A DNA stretch of 64,000 nucleotides from contig NC_052399.1 of NCBI RefSeq assembly GCF_009389715.1, positions 2,124,938 to 2,188,937 on the forward strand, written 5' to 3'. The stretch's first letter is position 1. Every line of letters begins with the position of its first letter. The DNA comes from Phoenix dactylifera. Its lineage: Eukaryota > Streptophyta > Magnoliopsida > Arecales > Arecaceae. Below are positions 8,174-64,000 of this stretch, piece after piece. The notes below the pieces were generated by a model. The model saw only the letters and a list, made by a program, of their open reading frames with translations. It ran no database searches and was not told the DNA's origin. Position numbers and translations under genes: made by a program.

Positions 8174-10238
8174 TTAGCTAAAGAGGAGGAGTGTCGGTTT
8201 GGTTGCATTCCCTAGTTCCGATGGTGCCTTCAACTCTTCGGATTCTTGCCTCCACTCCATAACTGTAGTAGGCGGAGAAGGAGCGGACTTAGTGAGATCA
8301 AGGTTCAAGTCAGGCAACATGTAGGCATCGTCCTCCAGGCAGCTCGCAGTATCAGACACCCGATCATTCTCCGTCGCCGAGTTCAGTTGCTGGCATTCCC
8401 TGCGTTCGTGGCTCGCAGGACCGCCTAATAACGTTACATTCCTCGAGCTTTGAGGCTGGCGGAGAGGGACGCTCTGGCTGACGCGATGGTTGTTGGGATC
8501 GATCCCCATACTTATGAGCTTCCTCCTAAGATGAGAGTTCCAATAATTCTTCACCTCGTTGTCTGTTCGTCCAGGCAGCCTTCCAGCTATCAGCGACCAC
8601 CTAAAGCCAAAAGATCATAAGATGAAATAAAATCAGTAAATCAGTATATGCTTACTTCTGGTATCTTTTGAACAAGGTTGTATACATCACTGGAGCATAT
8701 GGTGTGCTTCATTTGCATCACTGAGGTCCTATATATGTCATATTTCATGCAAGGATGTGAATAAAAAAAATATGCATGCACTACGTGATGTCCTCACTAT
8801 GAGAATATAATTGATTTTTTTTTTTTTTGTAGGAATTATGTGACACGACGACACCACCGGAGTGCAATGCCTCCACCTCTGCCTCGAGCAACGGCAATTT
8901 CCTCGTCTACATAAAACCAGATGAAGAAGGGATCCTTGGTGCAGCGGTGCTAGGCTCCCTCTCCTCTTCTCATAGGCTAATCTGCAAAGGGCCAAATGAT
9001 CCTACCTTTATATAGGAACACACTCAAAAATGAGTGCCAATATCCTGTTCTTCCAATGAAAATTTGCCTTCAAAGGTTAGACACTCCATTATCGATCCTC
9101 TTTGCCTGATAACCCAAATCAATGTTACTAAATGTATCCAATTTCATTACTCATTTTGATTTAACGAACAACAATTTCAGTCTTGCACCTTACAAAGATA
9201 ATAATAAAGCCAAAAAAAATTAATATGTAGGTTATAGCAAAAATCTGCACCTATTAATCGCATTTTCCATGAACAGTAATTTGAAGTGAGGCTCCTAACT
9301 GTATGTATGTGCGCTCATGGTGATCCTACTACACATCCTAGTATATCTCTAGAACTACAAATGAAGAGATCCCAACAGCTATACACCTCAAAACCATCTA
9401 TGTCGAATATTCACCTTGCAGGAAGAAAAATAAAGGACCTCATGAAACCCTATGAGACTACAGGCCAGGTCGCAAATAAATATAAACTTGGAAAAAAAAG
9501 CTTCAGGCAGCTTAATCTATTCACCAGAGAACATTGCCCTTATCAGCATGCTATATAGCTATCACACTGGACAAGATCCAATTAGAAAGAAACCTCCACA
9601 AGCTACCTCAAGGTAGTTGGTTGCTTAAAAATTAATGTTCTTACGGATACCTAGCTCGACAGGTAAATTCAAGGTGCTGCACTAATACGTTGTGTCCATG
9701 CATGTTCAGAAGTCTTATAAGTAGCAATATGATTTACCATTTACATCATGATTCTGATGTTATGTTCTGATCATTAGGAATGGAAGCCCTAAGCCATACA
9801 ATGTAAATAAAAAAAAAAATACGACTGAGTATGATGAAACTCTTAATTTCTACAAATCCTTTAGTATTAATATTACTGCTTCTTCATTGAAAGCTGAGCA
9901 TACCGATTGCCAAGAAGAGCGTGGAGCTTAATGATGAGGTCCTCTTCATCCTCCTCAAAGTTCCCTCTCTTAACGTTGGGCCGTAGGTAGTTTATCCATC
10001 GCAGCCTACAACTCTTACCGCACCGAAGCAGTCCTAAGAAGAGTAGGAACAATTAGCCAAGGAACCCATGAAATCATTCATAACACTCGGACTTGAGGTG
10101 TGCAACACCTGCAGCCTTGGGGAGTGATCCCCAAGAACCTTCTCCATGGGCGCGGATGTAGTTAATGAGTTTCTCGTCCTCCTGCTTCGTCCATGCTCCC
10201 TTGTTGGTGTCTTGCTTATCACAACAAGGCTTCCTCAT
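8174..10238 (-). CDS. R2R3-MYB transcription factor, subgroup 4 repressor type
   Basis: Three exons on the minus strand: 10109-10238, 9904-10033, 8174-8600. They are in phase, 687 nt, 228 aa, with introns at the usual R2R3-MYB positions. R2 spans about residues 13-63 and R3 about 66-114. The bHLH-interaction signature DLx2Kx3Lx6Lx3R is complete (Asp75 to Arg94). After R3 come the subgroup-4 C1 motif ([12 protein letters not shown]) and a C2/EAR repression motif (PDLNLDL). Such proteins (AtMYB4 and FaMYB1 types) bind promoters of phenylpropanoid or flavonoid genes and repress them, alone or with bHLH partners. An oddity: the usual GCWRSLPKAAG of R2 reads [11 protein letters not shown], so a normally conserved Cys and Arg are changed. 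The N-terminus [16 protein letters not shown] is most like the FaMYB1 branch. Confidence 0.92.
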
Positions 10239-13200
10239 TGTTCTCCCTCTATTTGCGTGTCTGAGAGAGAGATGAGGAGGGAGAGAAAGATAAAGGGCCG
10301 AGGGTATGGAGCAGACGGCAAGGGCGAAGGATATATAATAAAGATTTTTGGGCTGTACAAAGATATGGAATGACTGAGACGAAGTTGACCATCGACCAGA
10401 AGAATGGTTGTTTGGGAGTGGGGGGTGAGGGGGAAGTGTGGTCTGTTAGTTGCGGTTAGAAGCCTTTGTTTTGTTTCAGGCTGCTAACAAAAACGATCCA
10501 AGATTTCTCCTTGGAGAGTGATGGAAGCCGGTTGGTCACACGTTCCGCGCTGACTGATAGCTTTCCCCATGTATCCGTACCCGTCTTATTTGTGCCCGTA
10601 GATGGGTTTGAGATCGGCTTTAATTAGGGTCTCGCTTTTGGAAGATTGAGGCTCGGAAGGCTTCATCTTTGGTACATGGTGTGCTTCATATCCATGATGA
10701 TTAATTTAAGTGATCGGTATAAATATAGCGTCATGAGATAATTGTCAAGCTATTGCATGGTTCAAGCATCCGCAAGGCCCTATATAGCTTAGATAAGGCA
10801 CCACAAGAACTGCAGCAGGAACAAAGGTTGAGATGGGTTACCCTAAGCCCCAGGAGAAATTGTTGGTCGGACTAGGTCGACCAACTCAACAGTGGACCAC
10901 TCTAACACTAACGGACATTTGTAATCATGGACAGAAAAAGGAGGAGGAGAGAACGGAGCAATACAGATGTTCGTTTGTAGTTAGATTGGTCCGAGCAATA
11001 CAGGTGTTCTTGACCTAGTATAAAACTTAGAGCCACCTAAGTTGACAAGTTGATCTATTGGATCAGACTCAAGCATTGCTAACCATGCAAGAATTGGATG
11101 CTGATCCCTAATTATGATGGTTGGCTGTCGGTTGGCGGTCGGTCGCTGCAAAATTTTGTACGTATTGCGAGGCTAGCACGTTGCAAACCAACCGTCCACC
11201 TCCCACAAAATATGAAGCTTTAACCATTCAAAGATAAGATAGGTTCGCATATCACTACTTTTAGAAGAACAAATAGATAGAATACGATAGTTGCCAAATT
11301 TGGTTAGTTCATTACTTTTTTAAAAAAATCGATTTTCTCTTATTCTCGAAAAACTCACCTCTTAATATTATTGTAATGAGAATTGTATAATCTCCGGAGA
11401 TATTCCAAGCCCCGAGCTCTTGCTCATCCTTGGATTGATTAATAAGTTTCTTGATTCTATGGCATACAAATGAAGTACTAACATAGTTCAACACTTCAAC
11501 CACAATTTTTTGCTCATAGACATTTTTTTTTCTTTTTTGGTTTTTATGTACCCTCTACCTTCCAGTCTTCATACCAGACCAGTTTAAAAAAAGATCTCAG
11601 AACATGGACAAACGGGAGGATTTTACTTTCTTGCTGAACATGGATATCATGTGGAAGTGCAATCAAGCTAGCACCAAGGTGGTCAATCAATTTCACGTCC
11701 GACGAATAAAGGATTATGGACTGGTTGGTTGGACATAGCAAACCACCTTGGAAACTCCTGTTCTCCGCGCTACTAGATTGCAGAATATGGTGAAACTAGA
11801 ATTCCAGCCGACCACGAAGACAAGCGACCGATAAAGAGGTTATGCATCGTTCTCATTCATGGCATGAAATGACCCTTCGCTTCTGTTACTGGGTCAGCAA
11901 TTGTGGATAGGCTGGGCCGATTGGATATGGAGTAGTTTGGAATCCTCATCAAAGATATCCATCAAACAATAGCCTCTGATTGGATGGCTTTCTATTCGGT
12001 GGAGCATTTTTCTAACACTCTGCAGATTCATTTGACATCTGTTTCTTCACTATTTTATAATATTTTGTTTTTAATTTTATAAGATATATTCATACTCCGT
12101 ACGATGATGCAATTTTGTCTTCAACATGATGTTAAAAACAAAAAAAACAAAGCAACATGATATGTAAATATATTTTTATATTGTTTAATAGTTTAAGATA
12201 AAGAAACAAACTATATATAACAGCCAAAACTGAAATTTTGTATACCATATTAATAAATAATAATAACTTCTATTTATACGACTCAGAAGCAGTGCTATCT
12301 TCTATATGCATAATACATTGGGCTACAATTTATTTCAACTTAATGGAGGTTGCAGCTGAGAGCTTTCAACATGCATCTTGAATGTTAATTCTAGTATCAA
12401 ATACTTAATAACAAGATACCTTTAAAATACTTAAATATCATCGAACAATATTTTATCTAATTTATCAGTTTCGTTATCTTTGATTGATACTATCAAATTT
12501 ATTAAATTTACACAATAGTTAATCTCAAAATTCGTATATCGGCTGAGATATCAATATCTCTATTCCCGTTGACGAGGTTTTGAACCATGTTGATTTCTTT
12601 TAAAATTCTTCCATTTCTGTCGCAACTAAGATTAATCATAGAGATGCCTGTTCCCGCGGTCGGAGACCTTGGCGGGCCTGAACTGCGTCCTTCCAAGTGG
12701 CTAGTCCGTCTCCAGACCTGGCAGATCTCCATTGGATTAGATGGTGGAACCCACAGGTCTTATCCGTTGGGTCCCATGCTGCTATAACTTCTATTTCCAC
12801 AGCTCGTCATTGTATTCTTTTTCCCGGGTACAGACATGAGCACAAGCTTACTCCAACTCATCGTATTTGAGCAAGCAGAGGTTCGTCATCAGTCATGCAT
12901 GAAAGCTGCTTCCTGTTTTTGACTGGTACAAGTAAGCTCCATCTCTGCAACATCTGTTCTTGTTTTCTTCGAAAAAAGCCCAAAGACGAATATATCGCAT
13001 GCAGAACTTAGCATCTGTGGGATCCAACTTGGTCGGTAGATGGGGCTTCCACACAGTAACACAGGAGCCAGATCTTGCGTCTATAAGTTTTGTTCTTAAT
13101 GTAATAATGGTGGCATGATCATTTTAAACCCTCAACAGAGGCCTGAGTGGAAGCCGTATTGGTGTCTGTATGTCTCTGGAATCTTGAATTGCTAAACACA

Positions 13201-48861: not shown

Positions 48862-50852
48862 GGGTGGAGGCGTGGAGCCACCTTCTAGATCACCAGGTCG
48901 CCCAAATGAAGAGATGTATCAAGTCAAAGACTTCGGAATTTTGTTAGCTGACTTTTTTTTTTGGACGGAAATCGGTTAGCCGACTTTTGAGACCAGTTAG
49001 AAGACAAGGCATGAGCATGGTCTTCTTCGGTGCCTTGGACAAGCAAGGAAGAAAAGTAATATCCAAGGATTTCTTCCTTGGTTTCAAGAAAAATATTTTT
49101 GTATGATCTGAGATGTCTGAGGTCCGACTCCCAGTGGTTCCCTTCCTACCCTGGGAGCATGCATGATGCCGGTTGGTGCACCGTACGTCCTCCCCATGCA
49201 AACGATTTTGTGTGCTGGAAATAATTTCCACGAGAAGCAACTACCCAATCACTGAATCTGGGCTATGGATTATTTTGGTTTGTCTGTAAAAAATCATTGT
49301 CGATGAGCCCATCGATTGAATCAGGCGCCGATGCAGGACCGCAAGAGTATATCGTGGCTAATATGAATTAACAAGTGCAGAACCTCCGTGGGCTTTAGGC
49401 TGTTTACTCTCAGCTTGATCGTAAAAACAAAGCTCGAGTTTGAGGTCAAATCTTGAATCGGGGCTGATTTCTTATCCTTTTCGCATTCCAGTAATGTTTT
49501 GATCTCGCGTCATTTACAAGCGAAGTAGTGAAAGGATGAAAGTTGGAGCTTGAATTTGCCCACTTTACCAAATGAACAGGCTTCAGCTGACTATTAATTA
49601 CTGAGCCGGTTCAGCTGCTCATGAACTGCTTGGTTCTTCTCAGCCATAGCAGAAAAAATTACTGTAGCGGAGAGTTTACATATATCTTTGTAGAAAGAAT
49701 GGTCATTCATGTGGATAAGTATATTTTAGTTCTTTGTTTTGTTAATTATGGTGATATTTTGGGTGTTTTAATACCTTTTCTCTAACAAGGTACCAATGGC
49801 CGAGTTGATAAAGTCTCTGAACATGTCAAAAAGATCTGGTTTTGTTTACTACTTTCACTTAAATATGGGGTGGGGCTCCGTGTCTGCCGCTCCTACCTAT
49901 CAAGGAAAAAATATTGATTTATTGATCTCGTGATAATTGTAATTTATTTCTAATTCCTATTCATAGAAATTAAATAGATGAGCTCTTTTTCATATGCAAT
50001 ATGCATTGTCCTTTTCCAAATGTCTTTGTCTTTTAGACTCCCGGATAAATATAATTGTGTGATAAGAGTCACATTCGGCCGTATATATTGATGTACTTCG
50101 AAGAGAAGCAAAGTTGTTGAATTAGAATACGTGTTAACAAGAAAAGAATTTTTAACAAATCTTACTTCATATACTTCTCAACAGCAGATACGTTCATCCT
50201 TTCTTACCTTCATCCGCATGTTCTTACAGTGCCGCTCCTTTTGGATGCCATTATCCAAAGAAGATATTGTAGGATATGATCAGTATATATATATACATAC
50301 ATACGTGTGCATATATTGTACTCAAATCAACTTCTAATAGCCAGTGTCGAGCAAAATTCATATATTATAAAAAGAACCAAAATATACTTATTATTTGGGT
50401 GGGTCGGATGGGAAAAATCATAGCCCAACCTTGCACTGCTTCATCCTTCAGGATCAAGCAACTACAATAGAAGGGTCCAAATGACTATCCAATGATTAGT
50501 CTAGTTAACTTAAACTGAAAGTATAATGCTTCGTTATGTTTTGGCCTCTTATATTTAATTTCTAGTTATTTTAGATGTCACATCTTTTGGACTATGTTAT
50601 ATTTATAATTGTGAGGATCTTTATGCAATAGATAGATGGATCTCAGATACTTATACAATACTAAATAATTCAGATACTATTTTCATGCTAGTTTTTTTAG
50701 GTAAGATTCTCAATTGTTGCAATAATGGCCTATAGACTTGCTACTTTTTTATCATATAACGTAAGGTAGGCATAAAACCATATATGTGGCTGGGATTTAT
50801 TACTTGGTTTGTATGTAAGAACTATTGAGATGAAAGTGAATGGCAAAACAGG

Positions 50853-51112
50853 CACTACAGGGAAAGTCGGTTTTACCGATGCTTTTTACAAGCGTCGGCA
50901 ATTTTCGGTCTAATGTCTAAATATGGCGACGCTTGTAAAAAGCGTCGGCAAAAAACGACGCTAATACGTGTTGGTGTAATCGCAGACCTAAGACGACGCT
51001 AAAAAGCGTCGTCGGAAGCCAACGACCCAAAATTTATTGCGTGTCCAACGAGCCCCACCTCCCCCTTCGTCCTTTCCGTCTATAATATCTTCTCCGAGAA
51101 GCTATAGTCCAC

Positions 51113-51144
<32 letters not shown>

Positions 51145-52545
51145 TGGAGCTCCAAAACCTTCGCAATGGCGACCCTCCGAGCTCCGAGCTCGCAGAACCC
51201 AACCATGGCGAACACTACCTCGACCCTCCCCTCTCCCCCCTGCGCTTCCCCTCGGACGATGTCGACAGCTCCTGCTCCACTCCCTACGCCAGCGCTCCCT
51301 CCAGCCCCGGCCGCGGCGGCGTCGCCGGTGGTTACTTCTTTAGCGCCCCCACCAGCCCCATGCACTTCATCCTCTCCTCCGCCGGCGGCGGCGGAGGCCG
51401 CTTCCCTTCCGACTCCCCCGACGCCTCCGTCGCCGGCTCCTTCGAGTTCGAATTCTCCGCCCGATTCCCCTCTGCCGCCGCCTTCGCCACCGGATCCATG
51501 ACCTCCGCCGACGAGCTCTTCCTTAACGGCCAGATCCGCCCCATGAAGCTCTGCTCCCACCTCCAGCGGCCCCAGGTCCTCGCCCCCCTCCTCGATCTCA
51601 ACGAAGAAGAAGACGACGACGATGAATCCGAGCGTCACCCGCCGAAAATGGCCGCGAGGGGGCGGGATCTGAAGCTCCGGAGCCGATCGATTCGCCGGAG
51701 GGCCAGATCCCATTCCCCACTTCGGAACGCGCCACTCCATTGGCAAATGGAGGTCGAAGAACGAGAAGATAGAGCGAAAGATGTAGAGCCGGTTCCAGAT
51801 CCGAAGTAGATCGAGGCGGAGGCGGCCACTCTATCCGTCTCGGCTTCGTCCTCCCGGTCCTCCTCCACATCCTCCTCCTCCTCCTCCTCCTCCTCCTCCT
51901 CCTGAAGAACCTCCAAGAAGTGGGTCTTCCTCAAAGATCTCCTCTATATAAGCAAGAGCGAGGGAAGAGAGAGAGGAAACACCAAAGAGAAGTTCTGGCA
52001 CTCGATCTCTTTCTTGCCTTACCGTCGGGGCCTGCTCGGCTGCCTGGGCTTCACTTCCCGCAGCTATGGCGCCATTAACGGCATCGCCTGTACCCTTCAC
52101 CCCGTCTCTTCCAAGTAAGCCACGCCGTCTCGCTTCAGTGGCAACGAGAGGGCATCTGTGGGATCTGAGGGATGCGATGAAGGAGGCGGAGAGGAAATTG
52201 GGGAGGAATCGAGGCTCTGATTCAAAATATTTTTTAAAATATTTTTTTTAAAAAAAAAATGTTTATAACGACGCTTTAAAGCGTCGGCGAAAACCCAAAA
52301 CTGGTTTAGGCTTTCCTGACACTTTAAAGCGTCGGCGAATGTTGTTTTTGCCGACGCGTTTATTAGCGTCGGGAAATCCCTGTTTTTACCGACGCTTTCT
52401 CTTAGCGTCGGCAAAAACCGGACCCACGCCCACCTGCCCGACGTCTGACCCACGCTTCGGGGTGCGTGGGCTGGAAATTCGCCGACGCTTAAAAGCGTCG
52501 GTAGAGACTAAAAAACCGTCGGGAGATATTCTTTCTTTTGTAGTG
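50853..52545. mobile_element. Pack-CACTA (CMC/EnSpm) element, 1693 bp
   Basis: The ends are CACTACAGGGAAAG and ...CTTTTGTAGTG (reverse complement CACTACAAAAG). The target duplication AGG lies at 50850-50852 and 52546-52548. Both subterminal regions are packed with inverted and direct copies of GCGTCGGC / GCCGACGC-type words (at about 50.88-51.02 and 52.26-52.52 kb), the usual CACTA transposase-binding arrays. There is no transposase, so it is non-autonomous. The interior from about 51.02 kb is host-like, GC-rich coding sequence. Confidence 0.9.
51144..52118 (+). pseudogene. Captured DUF1645 gene inside the CACTA element
   Basis: A single frame from ATG 51144 to TAA 52116-52118 (324 codons before the final stop) reads as a complete DUF1645-family protein apart from two in-frame stops, TAG at 51807 and TGA at 51903. 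Family landmarks in order: SSCSTPYASAPSSPGRG, GYFFSAPTSPMHFILSSA, SFEFEFSARF, SADELFLNGQIRPMKL, RSIRRRARSHSPLRNAP, a poly-Ser tract (TCC repeats, about 51866-51902), SKKWVFLKDLLY.SKSEGR, KFWHSIS, and the C-terminal block RRGLLGCLGFTSRSYGAING. A GA-rich stretch before the ATG looks like the donor gene's 5' UTR. DUF1645 proteins are plant-specific and poorly understood. This is a capture of an intronless gene; expression is unknown. Confidence 0.85.
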
Positions 52546-52921
52546 AGGGAAGCTGGTTATGAGGTTCTAGTACGCCAGCGCCAATATTTAGAATCAAAAC
52601 TAATAGCTAAGAATAATTGGCCAGTCTCCCTTTTTTTTAATTTTGGCTTCAATAGATGACTCCTACGATTCTAGCGCAAATATATATATTAAAAAAAAAA
52701 AAGTATTGCAGCACTACAGGCAACTCCCTAGTAATCCACAGGTCCTAAAATAGACCCTATTGCAATAAATCCTATTCACTTATTGTTCTCATCCCGTATT
52801 AGGTTCACATTGGAAAGAAAAGTCTCTCTCTCATACCCAACAGTAAATAATTGGAGAGTTGTACTTTTATCAACCATCTTTTGTCATGTTAGTTTTTTTT
52901 TATTTAATTTTTTTGCCCGTC

Positions 52922-53457
52922 TTTTTTTTTTTTTTTTTTTTTTTTTTGCTGAAAACAAGTTTTCATACGAAACGTGTACAAATACATCCAATAAAATCAA
53001 AAAACACTAACTCATGGAGAGCTAGTGGCAGCTCCCCCTCCCCCGCCCAAAGAGTGTACCCTGAATGCTGAGCCGCGAAGGCAGCCACCCAGTCGGCTGC
53101 CCCATTGGCTTCTCTGAATACATGTTTGGCCTGGACGGCCACCCCAACTCCACACATCATCCCTATATCCCGAACCAAGGGGTGGTTCGTGCCCTCACCC
53201 CTCAGTCCCTCCTGGATCCAACTGATAACTGATAACTGTTTCTCCAAGACAATCGAGCCAGCCTGCAATACCTGCCTCGCATATCGAAGATCCGTCCAGG
53301 CAGCTCGTAGCTCTGCCCCGAAAACCGATGTGCCGAACAACTGACAGCCACCTGCTGCCATCACTCTAAAGTACGGGTCTTGTATCACAAAATCTGCACC
53401 ATTTCGCGCGCCTCCATCCAGAACGGCGGTTCCTTGCGATATGGCAGCCAGCCAAAC
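52922..53457 (-). mobile_element. 5'-truncated LINE, 3' RNase H-like tail with poly(A)
   Basis: On the minus strand an open frame from 53457 to the stop at 52963-52965 encodes a LINE-type C-terminal RNase H domain: VLDGGARNGA, FGAELRAAW, ISWIQEG, HPLVRDI, HVFREANGAADWVA. Fifteen nt after the stop comes a 26-A tail (T run at 52922-52947). The central catalytic Asp is missing (LEKQLSVI where LEGDS-type is usual), so this copy is dead. The upstream reverse transcriptase is absent, as expected from 5' truncation. It sits right beside the CACTA element. Confidence 0.75.
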
Positions 53458-55943: not shown

Positions 55944-58685
55944 ATGACAGTGGTCCAATGAGAAAGAAAGACGAGGGGGTAGGATTCATCGTGGTCGGGC
56001 GAATTAATTCCATGAAAGAAAAAAAGAACGGAGTCACCTGAACAGTCAGTTGAGGAACGATACCCGAGGATGGGATGGGGTTAGAGCTAGCTTCCCAGTC
56101 TAATGGTTGGGAAGAAGAAGTTTTTCCTACATGGATGACAAGGGGAGGTCCAGTCCACGGGTGTTTCACGACCGCAGAGGAATTCATTCTTATAAAAGGA
56201 ATATAGAATTTTGCCTTGCTTTGCTACCGGAAAATACTCTCTTTCTCCTCCTATTATATATACATGTATATGTATATGTATATATGTATATGTATATGTT
56301 CTTGGTTGCCACAAGGGTCGTGTGGGGCTCAAACAAAAGAGTAATCAAGTACGTTCTCGCATATGTAGCTCCATTTATTTATTATTATTGGTATGTTTTT
56401 TCTGCAGAAATTTCACCGTGACCTCCCTCCCACGCCGGTCTTCGCCTTCGGCACCAGCGCGAAGGCCGCCACCTTTCCGGGCCCCACCATCATCGCCCGC
56501 CAAGGCGTCCCCCTCTCCGTCACCTGGCAGAACCACCTCCCGTCGTCCCACATCCTCCCTTGGGACCCCACCGTCCCCACCGCCATCCCCAAGAACGGCG
56601 GCGTCCCCACCGTCGTCCACCTCCACGGCAGCGTCCACCCCCCGGTCTCCGACGGCAGCGCCCTCGCCTGGTTCACCGCCAACTTCCAAGAAACCGGCCC
56701 AAAATGGACCCAGGCCACCTACACCTACCCCAACGTCCAGCCCCCCGGCAACCTCTGGTACCACGACCACGCCCTCGGCCTCACCCGCGCCAACCTCCTC
56801 GCCGGCCTCCTCGGCGCCTACGTCATCCAAAACCCCTCCCTCGACGAGCCCTTCAACCTCCCCTGCGGCGACACAATTTGACCGCCACCTCATCATCGCC
56901 GACCGGAGCTTCAACGTCGACGGCACCCTCTTCATGAACGCCACCGGCGTCAACCCCTCCATCCACCCCCAGTGGCAGCCCGAGTACTTTGGCGAGGCCA
57001 TCACCGTCAACGGCAAGGCCTGGCCGTTTCTCGCCGTCCACCGTCGCAAGTACCGCTTCCGTATCATCAACTCGAGCAACGCGCGTTACATCCGGCTAGC
57101 ATTATCCAACGGCCTTGCATTCTGCGTCATCGGCTCCGACGCATCGTACCTGGCGGCGCCGGTCACGTCGCAAAACATCCTCTTAGCCCCTGCGGAGACC
57201 GCCGACGTCATCGTCGACTTCTCGTTATCGACAACCAATGAGGCCGTGCTGACCAACGATGCACCGTACCCATATCCGACAGGCTCGCCGGTGGGGCCTC
57301 TTAACGGTAAAGTGATGAAGTTCGTGATACTACCAAAGGGAACGCCGCCGGAGGATCCCGATAACTCGACGGTGCCGACGAAGGAGGGGAATTTTACATC
57401 AGTGGTGCCGACCGACGTGGCGTTAACGAGGTACATAACGATGTACGAGTACACCAGCGCGACGGGCAGCCCGACGCACCTTTATATCAACGGCAAGAGG
57501 TTCGAGGATCCGGTGACTGAGACGCCGACGTCCGGGACGACGGAGCTGTGGAACGTGATCAATTTAACGGGGGATAACCATCCGTTACATATACACCTGG
57601 GGGTGTTTCAGGCGATTAAAGTGCAGGAGTTGGTGGACTTGACGACGTTCAAGAATTGTATGACGGCCATCAATGACGCTGTCAAGTGTAACGTGGCGGG
57701 GCACGCGGTGGGGAAGGTGGTGCCGGTGCCGGCCGGAGCACGAGAAGACCTGGAAGAATGTGGTGAAGATCGATCCCGGGTACATGACGTCCGTGGTGGT
57801 GGCGTTCAAGTTGGTGGAAACCAATCAGAAGTATCCGTTCGATGCCACAGGGGAGCCTGGTTACGTCTACCACTGCCACGTGAGTTCCTAATCTGGCTTC
57901 AGTTGATGACTTAGTTGGTCCAACCCATTAGTATCCATGACACCATTAAACTTTAAACCGAAGTAGCGTCAAGGAGATTGCAGGATCCATGAACCAATTT
58001 TAAATTTATGGCTTGGGTACGGGTCTGACAAGGAAATTGCTGAACCAAAACCTGATCCGGTTATGTCCAACCAGACAAAGAAAGGGGTAACGATGGTTGA
58101 CTTAAAAATAATCTTCTTATGCCAAATTTACCAAAAAAAAAAAAAACAATCTTCAAGAAATAGATCGAGGCCTGCAAGACCGCAACTGGCTAGCGAGTGC
58201 TCTTAGCCTTAGAGTTCGAGTTGTATCTTTCATGCAAAGAAAAAGTTTACCTTTCTTATGTAGGCCCGGTTTATATGGCAAAAAAAGAAAAATAATAATA
58301 AAAAAATCAATCATTCTTCGGCACTAAAGATACAACCCGGAACCTTCGGTCTTTCGGCCCGCAATGGATACTAATCAAGGTGGATGCGGTCCTGCGGATA
58401 TGGCCACAAGGGTTAATTTAGCATGCAACAAGAATAAAGGTCCCCATAACTGGGTCTTGAATCTTGATCTCAGCCCGGTCTATTTGACCCTCTAGCCACG
58501 GATTAATAATTTGGCCGGCTTGGCGGGCCGGGCTATGTGATTACTAACAGGCCTGTTTTAAGTCCACCTTAGTTCTTTAATGCTTAAGATCGATAGATTT
58601 ACTCGCTCTCTCTCTCATTTCTACTTTGCAGATATTGGATCATGAGGACAAGGCTATGATTCGGCCAATGAAGATGCTTCCTTGA
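55318..58685 (+). CDS. LPR1-like: LPR-type multicopper oxidase, with two apparent frameshifts
   Basis: Exons 55318-55545, 56408-57879 and 58632-58685 with GT-AG introns. The start [20 protein letters not shown] is a secretory signal peptide. All copper-ligand motifs are present: [29 protein letters not shown] and, split by intron 2, [12 protein letters not shown]. The closest known family is Arabidopsis LPR1/LPR2, a cell-wall ferroxidase that oxidises Fe(II) and arrests root growth on low phosphate. Exon 2 is broken twice: one extra base near 56875 (between PCGDT and FDRHLII) and an extra GCCG at about 57732-57735 (a tandem 4-bp copy, before EHEKTWKN). Without these two changes the length would be 581 aa, exactly LPR1 size, with no other stop. 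Either a very young pseudogene or sequence errors. Confidence 0.88.
55870..55931. repeat. TA microsatellite in LPR intron 1
   Basis: About 30 TA units followed by TGTA repeats. A second TA/TG-rich tract lies at 56257-56300 in the same intron. Confidence 0.95.
58212..58350. repeat. Small inverted repeat in LPR intron 2 (MITE-like)
   Basis: The left arm has GTTCGAGTTGTATCTTT. The right arm, read as reverse complement, has GGTTCCGGGTTGTATCTTT. The shared GGTTGTATCTTT also occurs in the ends of the 21540-21718 element, so they may belong to one family. Boundaries are approximate. Confidence 0.35.
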
Positions 58686-59392: not shown

Positions 59393-59947
59393 CTCCTGCA
59401 CGTCTCCTCATATTTGATTTGAACCTTGAACTTCTCCAAAAGGTCAAAAGTTAGAATTAGCTGAGCCAAGACGGGTGGAAAGAAGGCTACTTATAAGATA
59501 TTTCTTCGGTGTCGCATTTTCTTTAAAATAGTGCGAACCTCCATAATCCTAAGTCCTTGAGATATACACATCGTCGTGACCAAATATTAATTTCAGCACA
59601 GTTATTGGAACATTCTAGTGTGTATATTATATGATTGGCATCGTTTGTAAATTTTTTAAATGTAGTGTCGAAGGGCTCTTTATGCAAACCAACTACTCAT
59701 TCTGCACTCGGTATATGAACATGTCTTGCTGATTGAGTGATTGGTAACATTTTGCACCGAACTTCCACTCAAAATGTTTGTATTAGTAGTCATTTTTACT
59801 AGCTCTATAAAAGTTTATCACATTTGATATTACGGTTGCAACCTGGAAAATACAACCTTTGGATACTTTACCATCATAAATAGCATGATTGCTTCTCTCC
59901 TTTATCAATTGAATATCTCTTTAAATATTACTCGGCCTTTCGATCCA

Positions 59948-61803: not shown

Positions 61804-64000
61804 TCAAGAAATTAGCTTCATAGGTCGGATCATTGCATTGTCTTCGTGATCTAGAATCTGCGCATATAAAATGTCAAACGATCAGTACACAAGTGACAAG
61901 AAAATAGACCTCAAAATTTCTACATGGATATGGGGGTTTGCTATCTTCTTGGTTAGTTGACATTCTTGTGATGCTTCTAAATGCATGCATGCACATGATG
62001 GATGCGTAGGATCATACGCTGCATCTTGACTTTATCTCATGGCCTGTCTTACCTTACCTCACCCACTGAATCGTACTAGCCTTTGACTTTAGTTTAGAAG
62101 GTTGGATTTATTTTTCCTCTCATTGAATAAAGTAATCATCTAAAATGATAGTTTTGCAACCAGAGAAAAAGGATTGATTTTAAATGAAAATTTTGAAAGA
62201 AAATAGAGAATAGTTAAGCCATCAACTTATTCTCCTCCCAATTTTCCAAAAAATTATTAGTTGGGTCAGATGAACCAAGAACCACTAATAAATTTATTCT
62301 AGTGTGTGTTGCTATTACATATAAAAAGAAGAAAGAGGAGAGAAAAAGGATTGCTACCACACGTGTTGCCTTTTTGTTGGACTAGTTTATGGTGGATTTG
62401 ATCTTAACTGATACTTTCTCAACTCTATGAAGCTTGGGCTCATATTTTTTTCAATTAATATTCACTTGTCTCTGGTTTCCGTCTCTATCCTCTCCCTCTC
62501 TTCCACTCACCTTATTAGTAAGATAGGGGATCCATGGATTTGAATTTATGACCACATGCATAGCTAAAGAAAATCAACAATTAAAATAAAATTTGAAGAA
62601 CACAAATATATTCAATTAAATAGATATATTGTTTTATGAATTTAGTCATTTTAAGCAAATTATGGTATTTCAATAATCAGTTATTTTCATTAAAAGAAAT
62701 CAATATTTTCTAGAAAATGAATGAAAAAATAAATATATTTTATATTCTTCATCTAATATTCTAAATCTTTACCGTGTAACATACTTAAAAATGTCAATAC
62801 TCAAGCATATTATTTTCTTATATTATATTTAATTTCTCATTCTTCTTTATTTTAGATATTTTTTCTTTTTCTTTTATTTTCTTAAAAATAATTTGGTCCA
62901 ATTAATTTGTATAATCATTGCAACAGTGATATGTTAAGCCAAACCCTTGGCCAAATTAACACAAGTCCGAGTTTACAAGTATGATAATTGGGGTAAGTCC
63001 TCCTCAAAAAGATAATTGGAGCAGGTCTGCAAACGGGACCAAAAATAATAATTAGAAAATATCATTTAATTTAAATCATGTACAAAAAAATATTATTTAA
63101 TTTGATTTTTAGAACTCTTTAGGTTCTCGGAGTTCAATTTTGGAAAACACTGCCAATATTTACATATATCTGCCTACAATAGGATCGTAGAACATAAGCA
63201 AATCTAGCACTAGCTTCTCTCATGTAGTTAAATCCATTGGGATTATCCTATTAATTAGGTTTATTAAAATAAAGATCCAGTCCGGTAATAAAAAGGATGA
63301 GATAAGAGCTTACGTGGCAATGGTAGACGTAACCCGGCTCCGCCGTTGCATCAAACGGAAACGGCGCATTCGTATCAATAAGCCTAAACTTCACCACCAC
63401 CGTCGTCATGTATCCAGGCTCAATCTTCACCATATTTTTCCACGTCTTCTCGTACTCCGGCACCGGCAGCAACTTCCCCACCGCATGGCCCGTGACGTTA
63501 CACTTAACGGCGTCATTGTTCGCCGTCATGCAATTGCTAAACGTCGTCAAGTCCACCAGCTCCGTCACTCTCACGGCCTGGAACGTCGCTAGGTGGAGAT
63601 GCAACGGATGGTTATCCTCCGTTAGATTGATCACCTCCCACACCTCGGTGCTCCCCGGCCGCGGCGTCTCCGTCACCGGGTCCTCGAATCTCTTCCCGTT
63701 GATATAAACGTGCGTCGGGTTCCCGGTCGAGCTCTGGTACTCATACATCGTAATGAATCTCCTCACCGTCGCCTCCCCCTCGTTGGCCGCCGGATAATTC
63801 ACTAGGCTTGCCGGGATCCTCGAATTGTCGGTCGGCGTATCGGCCGATATGACGAACCTCATTACCTTGCCGTTGAGCTGGCCGGCAGCGGTACCATTGG
63901 GGTACGGGTAAGGTGCACTGTTGGTTAGCTCAGCAGTTGAGGTAGTTGATTTCGAGAAATCGATCACCACATCGAAGGTCTCCGCCGGCGAGAGGAGGAT
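61804..64000 (-). CDS. LPR1-like: LPR-type multicopper oxidase, 3' part (runs off the window)
   Basis: Two exons on the minus strand: 63314 to the window edge at 64000 (the frame opens with [15 protein letters not shown]) and 61804-61857. The intron is GT-AG, phase 0, at the same place as intron 2 of the plus-strand copy, and splits the [12 protein letters not shown] ligand motif in the same way. Visible domains are the end of cupredoxin domain 2 and all of domain 3, with [28 protein letters not shown] and EPGYVYHCH. The C-terminus is IRPMKLIS. No frameshift in the visible part, so this copy may be functional. Its function is as for LPR1/LPR2, apoplastic ferroxidase in the phosphate/iron root response. 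The upstream half, including the first two copper motifs, is beyond the window. Confidence 0.92.

Follow-up and report, generated by a model that had tools for sequence, protein, structure and literature searches.

A CACTA element enclosing a DUF1645 pseudogene in the genome of Phoenix dactylifera

Structure of the element

The window analysed here is a stretch of 64,000 nucleotides of Phoenix dactylifera DNA (assembly GCF_009389715.1, contig NC_052399.1, positions 2,124,938 to 2,188,937 of the forward strand), and all coordinates below refer to positions within it. A CACTA element occupies positions 50853-52545 (1693 bases). It opens with CACTACA, whose first base is 50853, and closes with TGTAGTG, whose last base is 52545, so that the CACTA termini are in inverted orientation. 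The element is bordered by the two copies of an AGG target-site duplication, at 50850-50852 on the left and 52546-52548 on the right (neither assigned a strand). The left end (50853-51015, plus strand, 163 bases) comprises the CACTACA terminus and subterminal palindromic repeats with six GCGTCG/CGACGC hexamers, and the right end (52263-52545, minus strand, 283 bases) comprises subterminal palindromic repeats with nine such hexamers, followed by the TGTAGTG terminus. The two ends are unequal in length, and the terminal inverted repeats match over only ~7 bases.

Among pairs spaced 100 bases to 20 kb apart, no CACTAC...GTAGTG pair in the window other than the one bounding the element has matching 3-base flanks; the CACTAC ends and perfect AGG duplication described in the initial annotation are both present. 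A second CACTA element in the window was considered and rejected, there being no other flank-matched CACTAC...GTAGTG pair; a CACTACA-like site at 59655-59667 (minus strand) has no flank-matched partner in the window, and no second copy of the element was seen within it. Searching with the 5-base CACTA alone returned 23 pairs with matching flanks in the window, that of the element included, and it is therefore the 6-7-base ends together with the repeats that carry the case for the element. As a control, 300 sequences as long as the window were generated with a first-order Markov model, and one of them contained a CACTACA...TGTAGTG pair less than 2 kb apart with matching flanks.

The dense subterminal arrays noted previously were recovered by two counts. 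The window contains GCGTCG/CGACGC hexamers at 24 places: 15 within the 446 bases that make up the element's two ends, two in the cargo and seven outside the element. All seven copies of GCGTCGGC in the window are located inside the element's ends (0.16 copies expected; none of 100 shuffles reached seven). Every one of the 15 end hexamers belongs to a palindrome whose arms measure 8 bases, with no more than one mismatch and a loop of 0-8 bases, as found in a scan that considered only arms containing the GCGTCG/CGACGC motif and that was not set against shuffled sequences. Over ~30 bases the left end can be aligned with the right end in reverse complement, and direct and inverted repeat pairs are present in both ends, which are related to each other as inverted repeats of palindromic units. 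We conclude that the element at 50853-52545 is real.

The DUF1645 cargo

The cargo frame, on the plus strand, runs from an ATG at 51144 to a terminal stop at 52116-52118 and comprises 324 codons when read through its two in-frame stops, which had been counted in the initial annotation and are located at 51807-51809 and 51903-51905. The first, open part (51144-51809, plus strand, 221 aa) matches positions 1-68 of the DUF1645 profile PF07816 (E = 8.1e-15) up to the first of these stops, and the remaining frame (51810-52118, plus strand) contains the second stop, continues the PF07816 match to profile position 118-119 (~51989) and closes with the terminal stop. When the cargo is read through, PF07816 is matched with E = 3e-29. 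The last piece on its own matches profile positions 95-119 (E = 4.4e-05) at 24.6 bits, just missing the cut-off of 25, which a shortened cut of the same piece slightly exceeded at 25.3 bits, and the middle piece of 31 codons has no Pfam match. The cargo frame is without an intron in the matched region. Its G+C content is 0.626, versus 0.312 and 0.386 in the ~600 bases on each side, and within the first part third codon positions reach 0.765. The content of the window is that of a plant, and the contrast of G+C-rich coding with A+T-rich non-coding DNA is suggestive of a monocot. That the cargo is a copy of a host DUF1645 gene, extending from start codon to terminal stop, is well supported.

The proposal that a host gene stands in the place of a transposase was upheld by the PF07816 match and by the lack of a transposase domain in the scanned element frames, among which no family besides DUF1645 reached the cut-off. 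Element frames accounted for three of three, five of ten, four of seven and four of ten proteins in the four Pfam scans, and a 110-codon frame at 51598-51930 (minus strand) and shorter frames outside the cargo lay outside these scans.

The cargo lacks an internal block of the domain. The PF07816 match ends at cargo residue 282, and seven residues separate it from the FLP at residues 290-292 (52011-52019), with SISF directly joined to LPYRRGLLGCLGF. The profile end was located using family peptides as PF07816 probes, two of which matched positions 165-188 (E = 3.1e-09) and 158-185 (E = 1.6e-08), the FLP in the probe corresponding to the last three profile positions. A third probe, reaching from eight residues before the profile end into the tail, had no PF07816 match, which places the GLLGCLGF tail outside the profile; this tail of the cargo is one that we take to be a feature of the DUF1645 family. 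Seven cargo residues therefore replace ~67 profile positions (119-185), or 66 by the last piece's own alignment, indicating that the block is absent without a change of frame. Consistent with this, the profile end (158-188) found no match in the cargo, and displacement of the missing block into another frame was rejected, as one other plus-strand frame and the scanned minus-strand frames gave no DUF1645 match.

The cargo thus does not hold the whole domain that would mark an intact DUF1645 protein, the match covering profile positions 1-118 of 188, and with two in-frame stops and one internal block missing it is a pseudogene. The claim in the initial annotation that every family block is kept from the first Met to the last residue is contradicted by the absence of positions 119-185, and its description of a nearly whole gene is accurate for the start and terminal stop and overstated for the interior, which is short of those positions and interrupted by the stops.

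Between the left end and the cargo, the stretch at 51016-51143 (plus strand, G+C 0.484) contains a TATAATA-like string and, ahead of the ATG, a (GA)n tract, and is probably the donor 5' UTR or the edge of its promoter. The donor 5' UTR suggested in the initial annotation is a putative one, although the (GA)n tract does precede the ATG. Following the cargo stop, a G+C-rich (0.598) stretch at 52119-52220 (plus strand), with no Pfam match in three frames, may derive from sequence 3' of the donor gene or from another captured piece. The junction between the cargo and the right end is formed by a tract consisting almost entirely of A+T (52221-52262, no strand, G+C 0.048).

Probable gene capture and alternative readings

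The locus is very probably a non-autonomous CACTA (En/Spm-type) transposon of the gene-carrying (Pack-CACTA) kind with a DUF1645 pseudogene as its cargo, and we infer gene capture from the anatomy of the element. CACTA transposases that act in trans depend on both CACTA termini and clusters of subterminal repeats. The CACTA termini and the palindromic CGACGCT...AGCGTCG clusters at both ends are what such a transposase would use, and the element would have been mobilised in trans by an autonomous CACTA element and inserted at this site by a presumed cut-and-paste event of which the 3-base AGG duplication is the visible trace. Most likely, the cargo itself has no role in transposition.

An unlikely alternative is that the cargo is active, either through expression of its open 221-codon part (51144-51809) as a truncated DUF1645 protein or through small RNAs from it that silence the donor gene. 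The open codons contain PF07816 positions 1-68, a promoter edge may precede them, 26% of the CACTA-captured genes in wheat were transcribed (PMC4290129), and CpG is undepleted in the cargo, with an observed/expected ratio of 1.01, as against ratios of 0.35 for the upstream 600 bases, 0.60 for the downstream side and 0.64 for the window. However, the two stops and the missing conserved block point to decay, and a stretch of the nearby multicopper oxidase gene has a CpG ratio of 1.12, so that CpG retention in the cargo may reflect coding origin only; it would suit a copy that is young or has little methylation, but does not date it. The low stop count is weak evidence for the recent capture that had been suggested and does not establish it, since two or fewer stops in 324 codons occurred in 132 of 2000 Markov sequences built from the cargo and one reverse frame of the cargo has a single stop. 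It is improbable to a still greater degree that the element moves a DUF1645 copy together with a promoter edge and that the 221-residue protein or small RNAs act on an intact donor gene, although if this were true the trans-acting cargo would constitute a mobile trans-regulator for the host, drawn from a stress- and growth-related family.

Going by published models, capture probably took place when two elements on either side of the gene fused or were excised aberrantly, or else when a gap was repaired faultily. Rubin and Levy are said to have ascribed capture to faulty gap repair. A model in which neighbouring elements fuse and so capture a gene has been published (PMC8903248 and PMC13317346), and PMC8978399 refers to Rubin and Levy for a mechanism. 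No CACTAC/GTAGTG vestiges with 0-1 mismatch were present at the inner junctions (50990-51060 and 52200-52300), and the data therefore favour neither mechanism of capture.

The same junctions bear on the reading in which a resident DUF1645 pseudogene lies between two separate CACTA-derived insertions that do not form one unit. Ends of 163 and 283 bases with only short repeats in common would suit such an origin, and the fusion model of capture likewise begins with two neighbouring elements (PMC8903248), but the outer flanks have identical AGG, as expected from a single insertion, and the inner junctions show no CACTAC or GTAGTG within one mismatch in the stretches given above, making this reading highly doubtful. 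To the reading of the cargo as an mRNA retrocopy, with the A+T tract at 52221-52262 as a poly(A) remnant, we give almost no credence, since the absence of an intron from the cargo frame and the position of the tract at the 3' junction are offset by the intron-less structure of a known DUF1645 gene (PMC10298434), by the mixture of T runs with A runs in the tract and by the TATA-like string before the ATG, which may fall outside an mRNA.

Relation to known gene-carrying CACTA elements

Pack-CACTA elements have been described in maize and rice (PMC8903248), and the Pack-CACTA/Pack-TYPE elements of Arabidopsis, rice and maize covered in that survey resemble the present element in having non-autonomous CACTA ends around host coding DNA and no transposase. 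They differ in that the cargo here is one recognisable gene, from start to stop codon, and in that the target-site duplication given for CACTA elements in the survey is 5 bases versus 3 bases here. On wheat chromosome 3B, 140 capture events involving 145 genes were reported, with 46% of the genes structurally likely to be functional and the transcribed fraction quoted above, and the authors regard gene fragments as the majority of captures (PMC4290129). As at the present locus, these are CACTA elements around host gene copies, with intact-looking genes as well as pseudogenes among them and mostly fragments; their average CDS (488 bp) is shorter than the 324-codon read-through frame of the pseudogene found here.

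Tpn1 of Japanese morning glory shares a captured host genic interior, retained terminal and subterminal repeats and a 3-base target-site duplication, and is distinguished by 28-base terminal inverted repeats and tandem repeats of 122 and 104 bases (PMC5105172), compared with an inverted repeat of ~7 bases and short palindromes here. Tgm-Express1 of soybean is likewise a CACTA element with host gene pieces, its 5.7 kb containing five gene fragments unrelated to one another (PMC1947982), as opposed to one recognised gene in 1.7 kb, and gene-carrying CACTA elements are also on record from Chenopodium (PMC8978399). DUF1645 genes have been linked with grain length and drought response, the intron-less member mentioned above being from maize (PMC10298434).

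In our literature search, CACTA and DUF1645 were nowhere reported together; among the matches listed, those for CACTA and the subterminal octamer included no transposon paper by title, and those for CACTA and transposon capture in oil palm included nothing relevant by title or start of abstract. A DUF1645 cargo in a CACTA element thus seems to be unreported in the searched literature, while the kind of element is itself known. Searches of other contigs returned 36 pattern matches for the first cargo piece in viral contigs and 184 for the last cargo piece in bacterial and archaeal contigs, none of them confirmed as a relative, and viral contigs yielded nothing for the left end of the element or for the one subterminal palindrome searched; plant DNA is not expected in any of these collections. 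Gene capture being documented in several plants, the view of the CACTA mechanism is unchanged by the present element, which provides a clean single example of a host gene carried, start codon through stop codon, within 1.7 kb, and which is relevant to annotation because the cargo might be misread as a gene of the host.

Other features of the window

A reverse-transcriptase-like fragment lies ~420 bases from the CACTA element at 52963-53457 (minus strand), with an RVT_3 match (E = 3.1e-04) whose 21.1 bits are below the cut-off of 21.6. The multicopper oxidase gene is represented by frames at 56196-57914 and 56369-56881 (both plus strand), with Cu-oxidase_3 in one frame and Cu-oxidase and Cu-oxidase_2 in another, indicating an intron or a frame change between ~56840 and 56985. 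From within this gene, an inverted repeat of 319 bases with 80% complementarity (57414-57732 and 63457-63775) connects to the far end of the window, where it probably marks a second, inverted copy of the gene. Two pieces of MYB DNA-binding sequence on the minus strand, at 8174-8614 and 10074-10445, are possibly exons of a single MYB gene.
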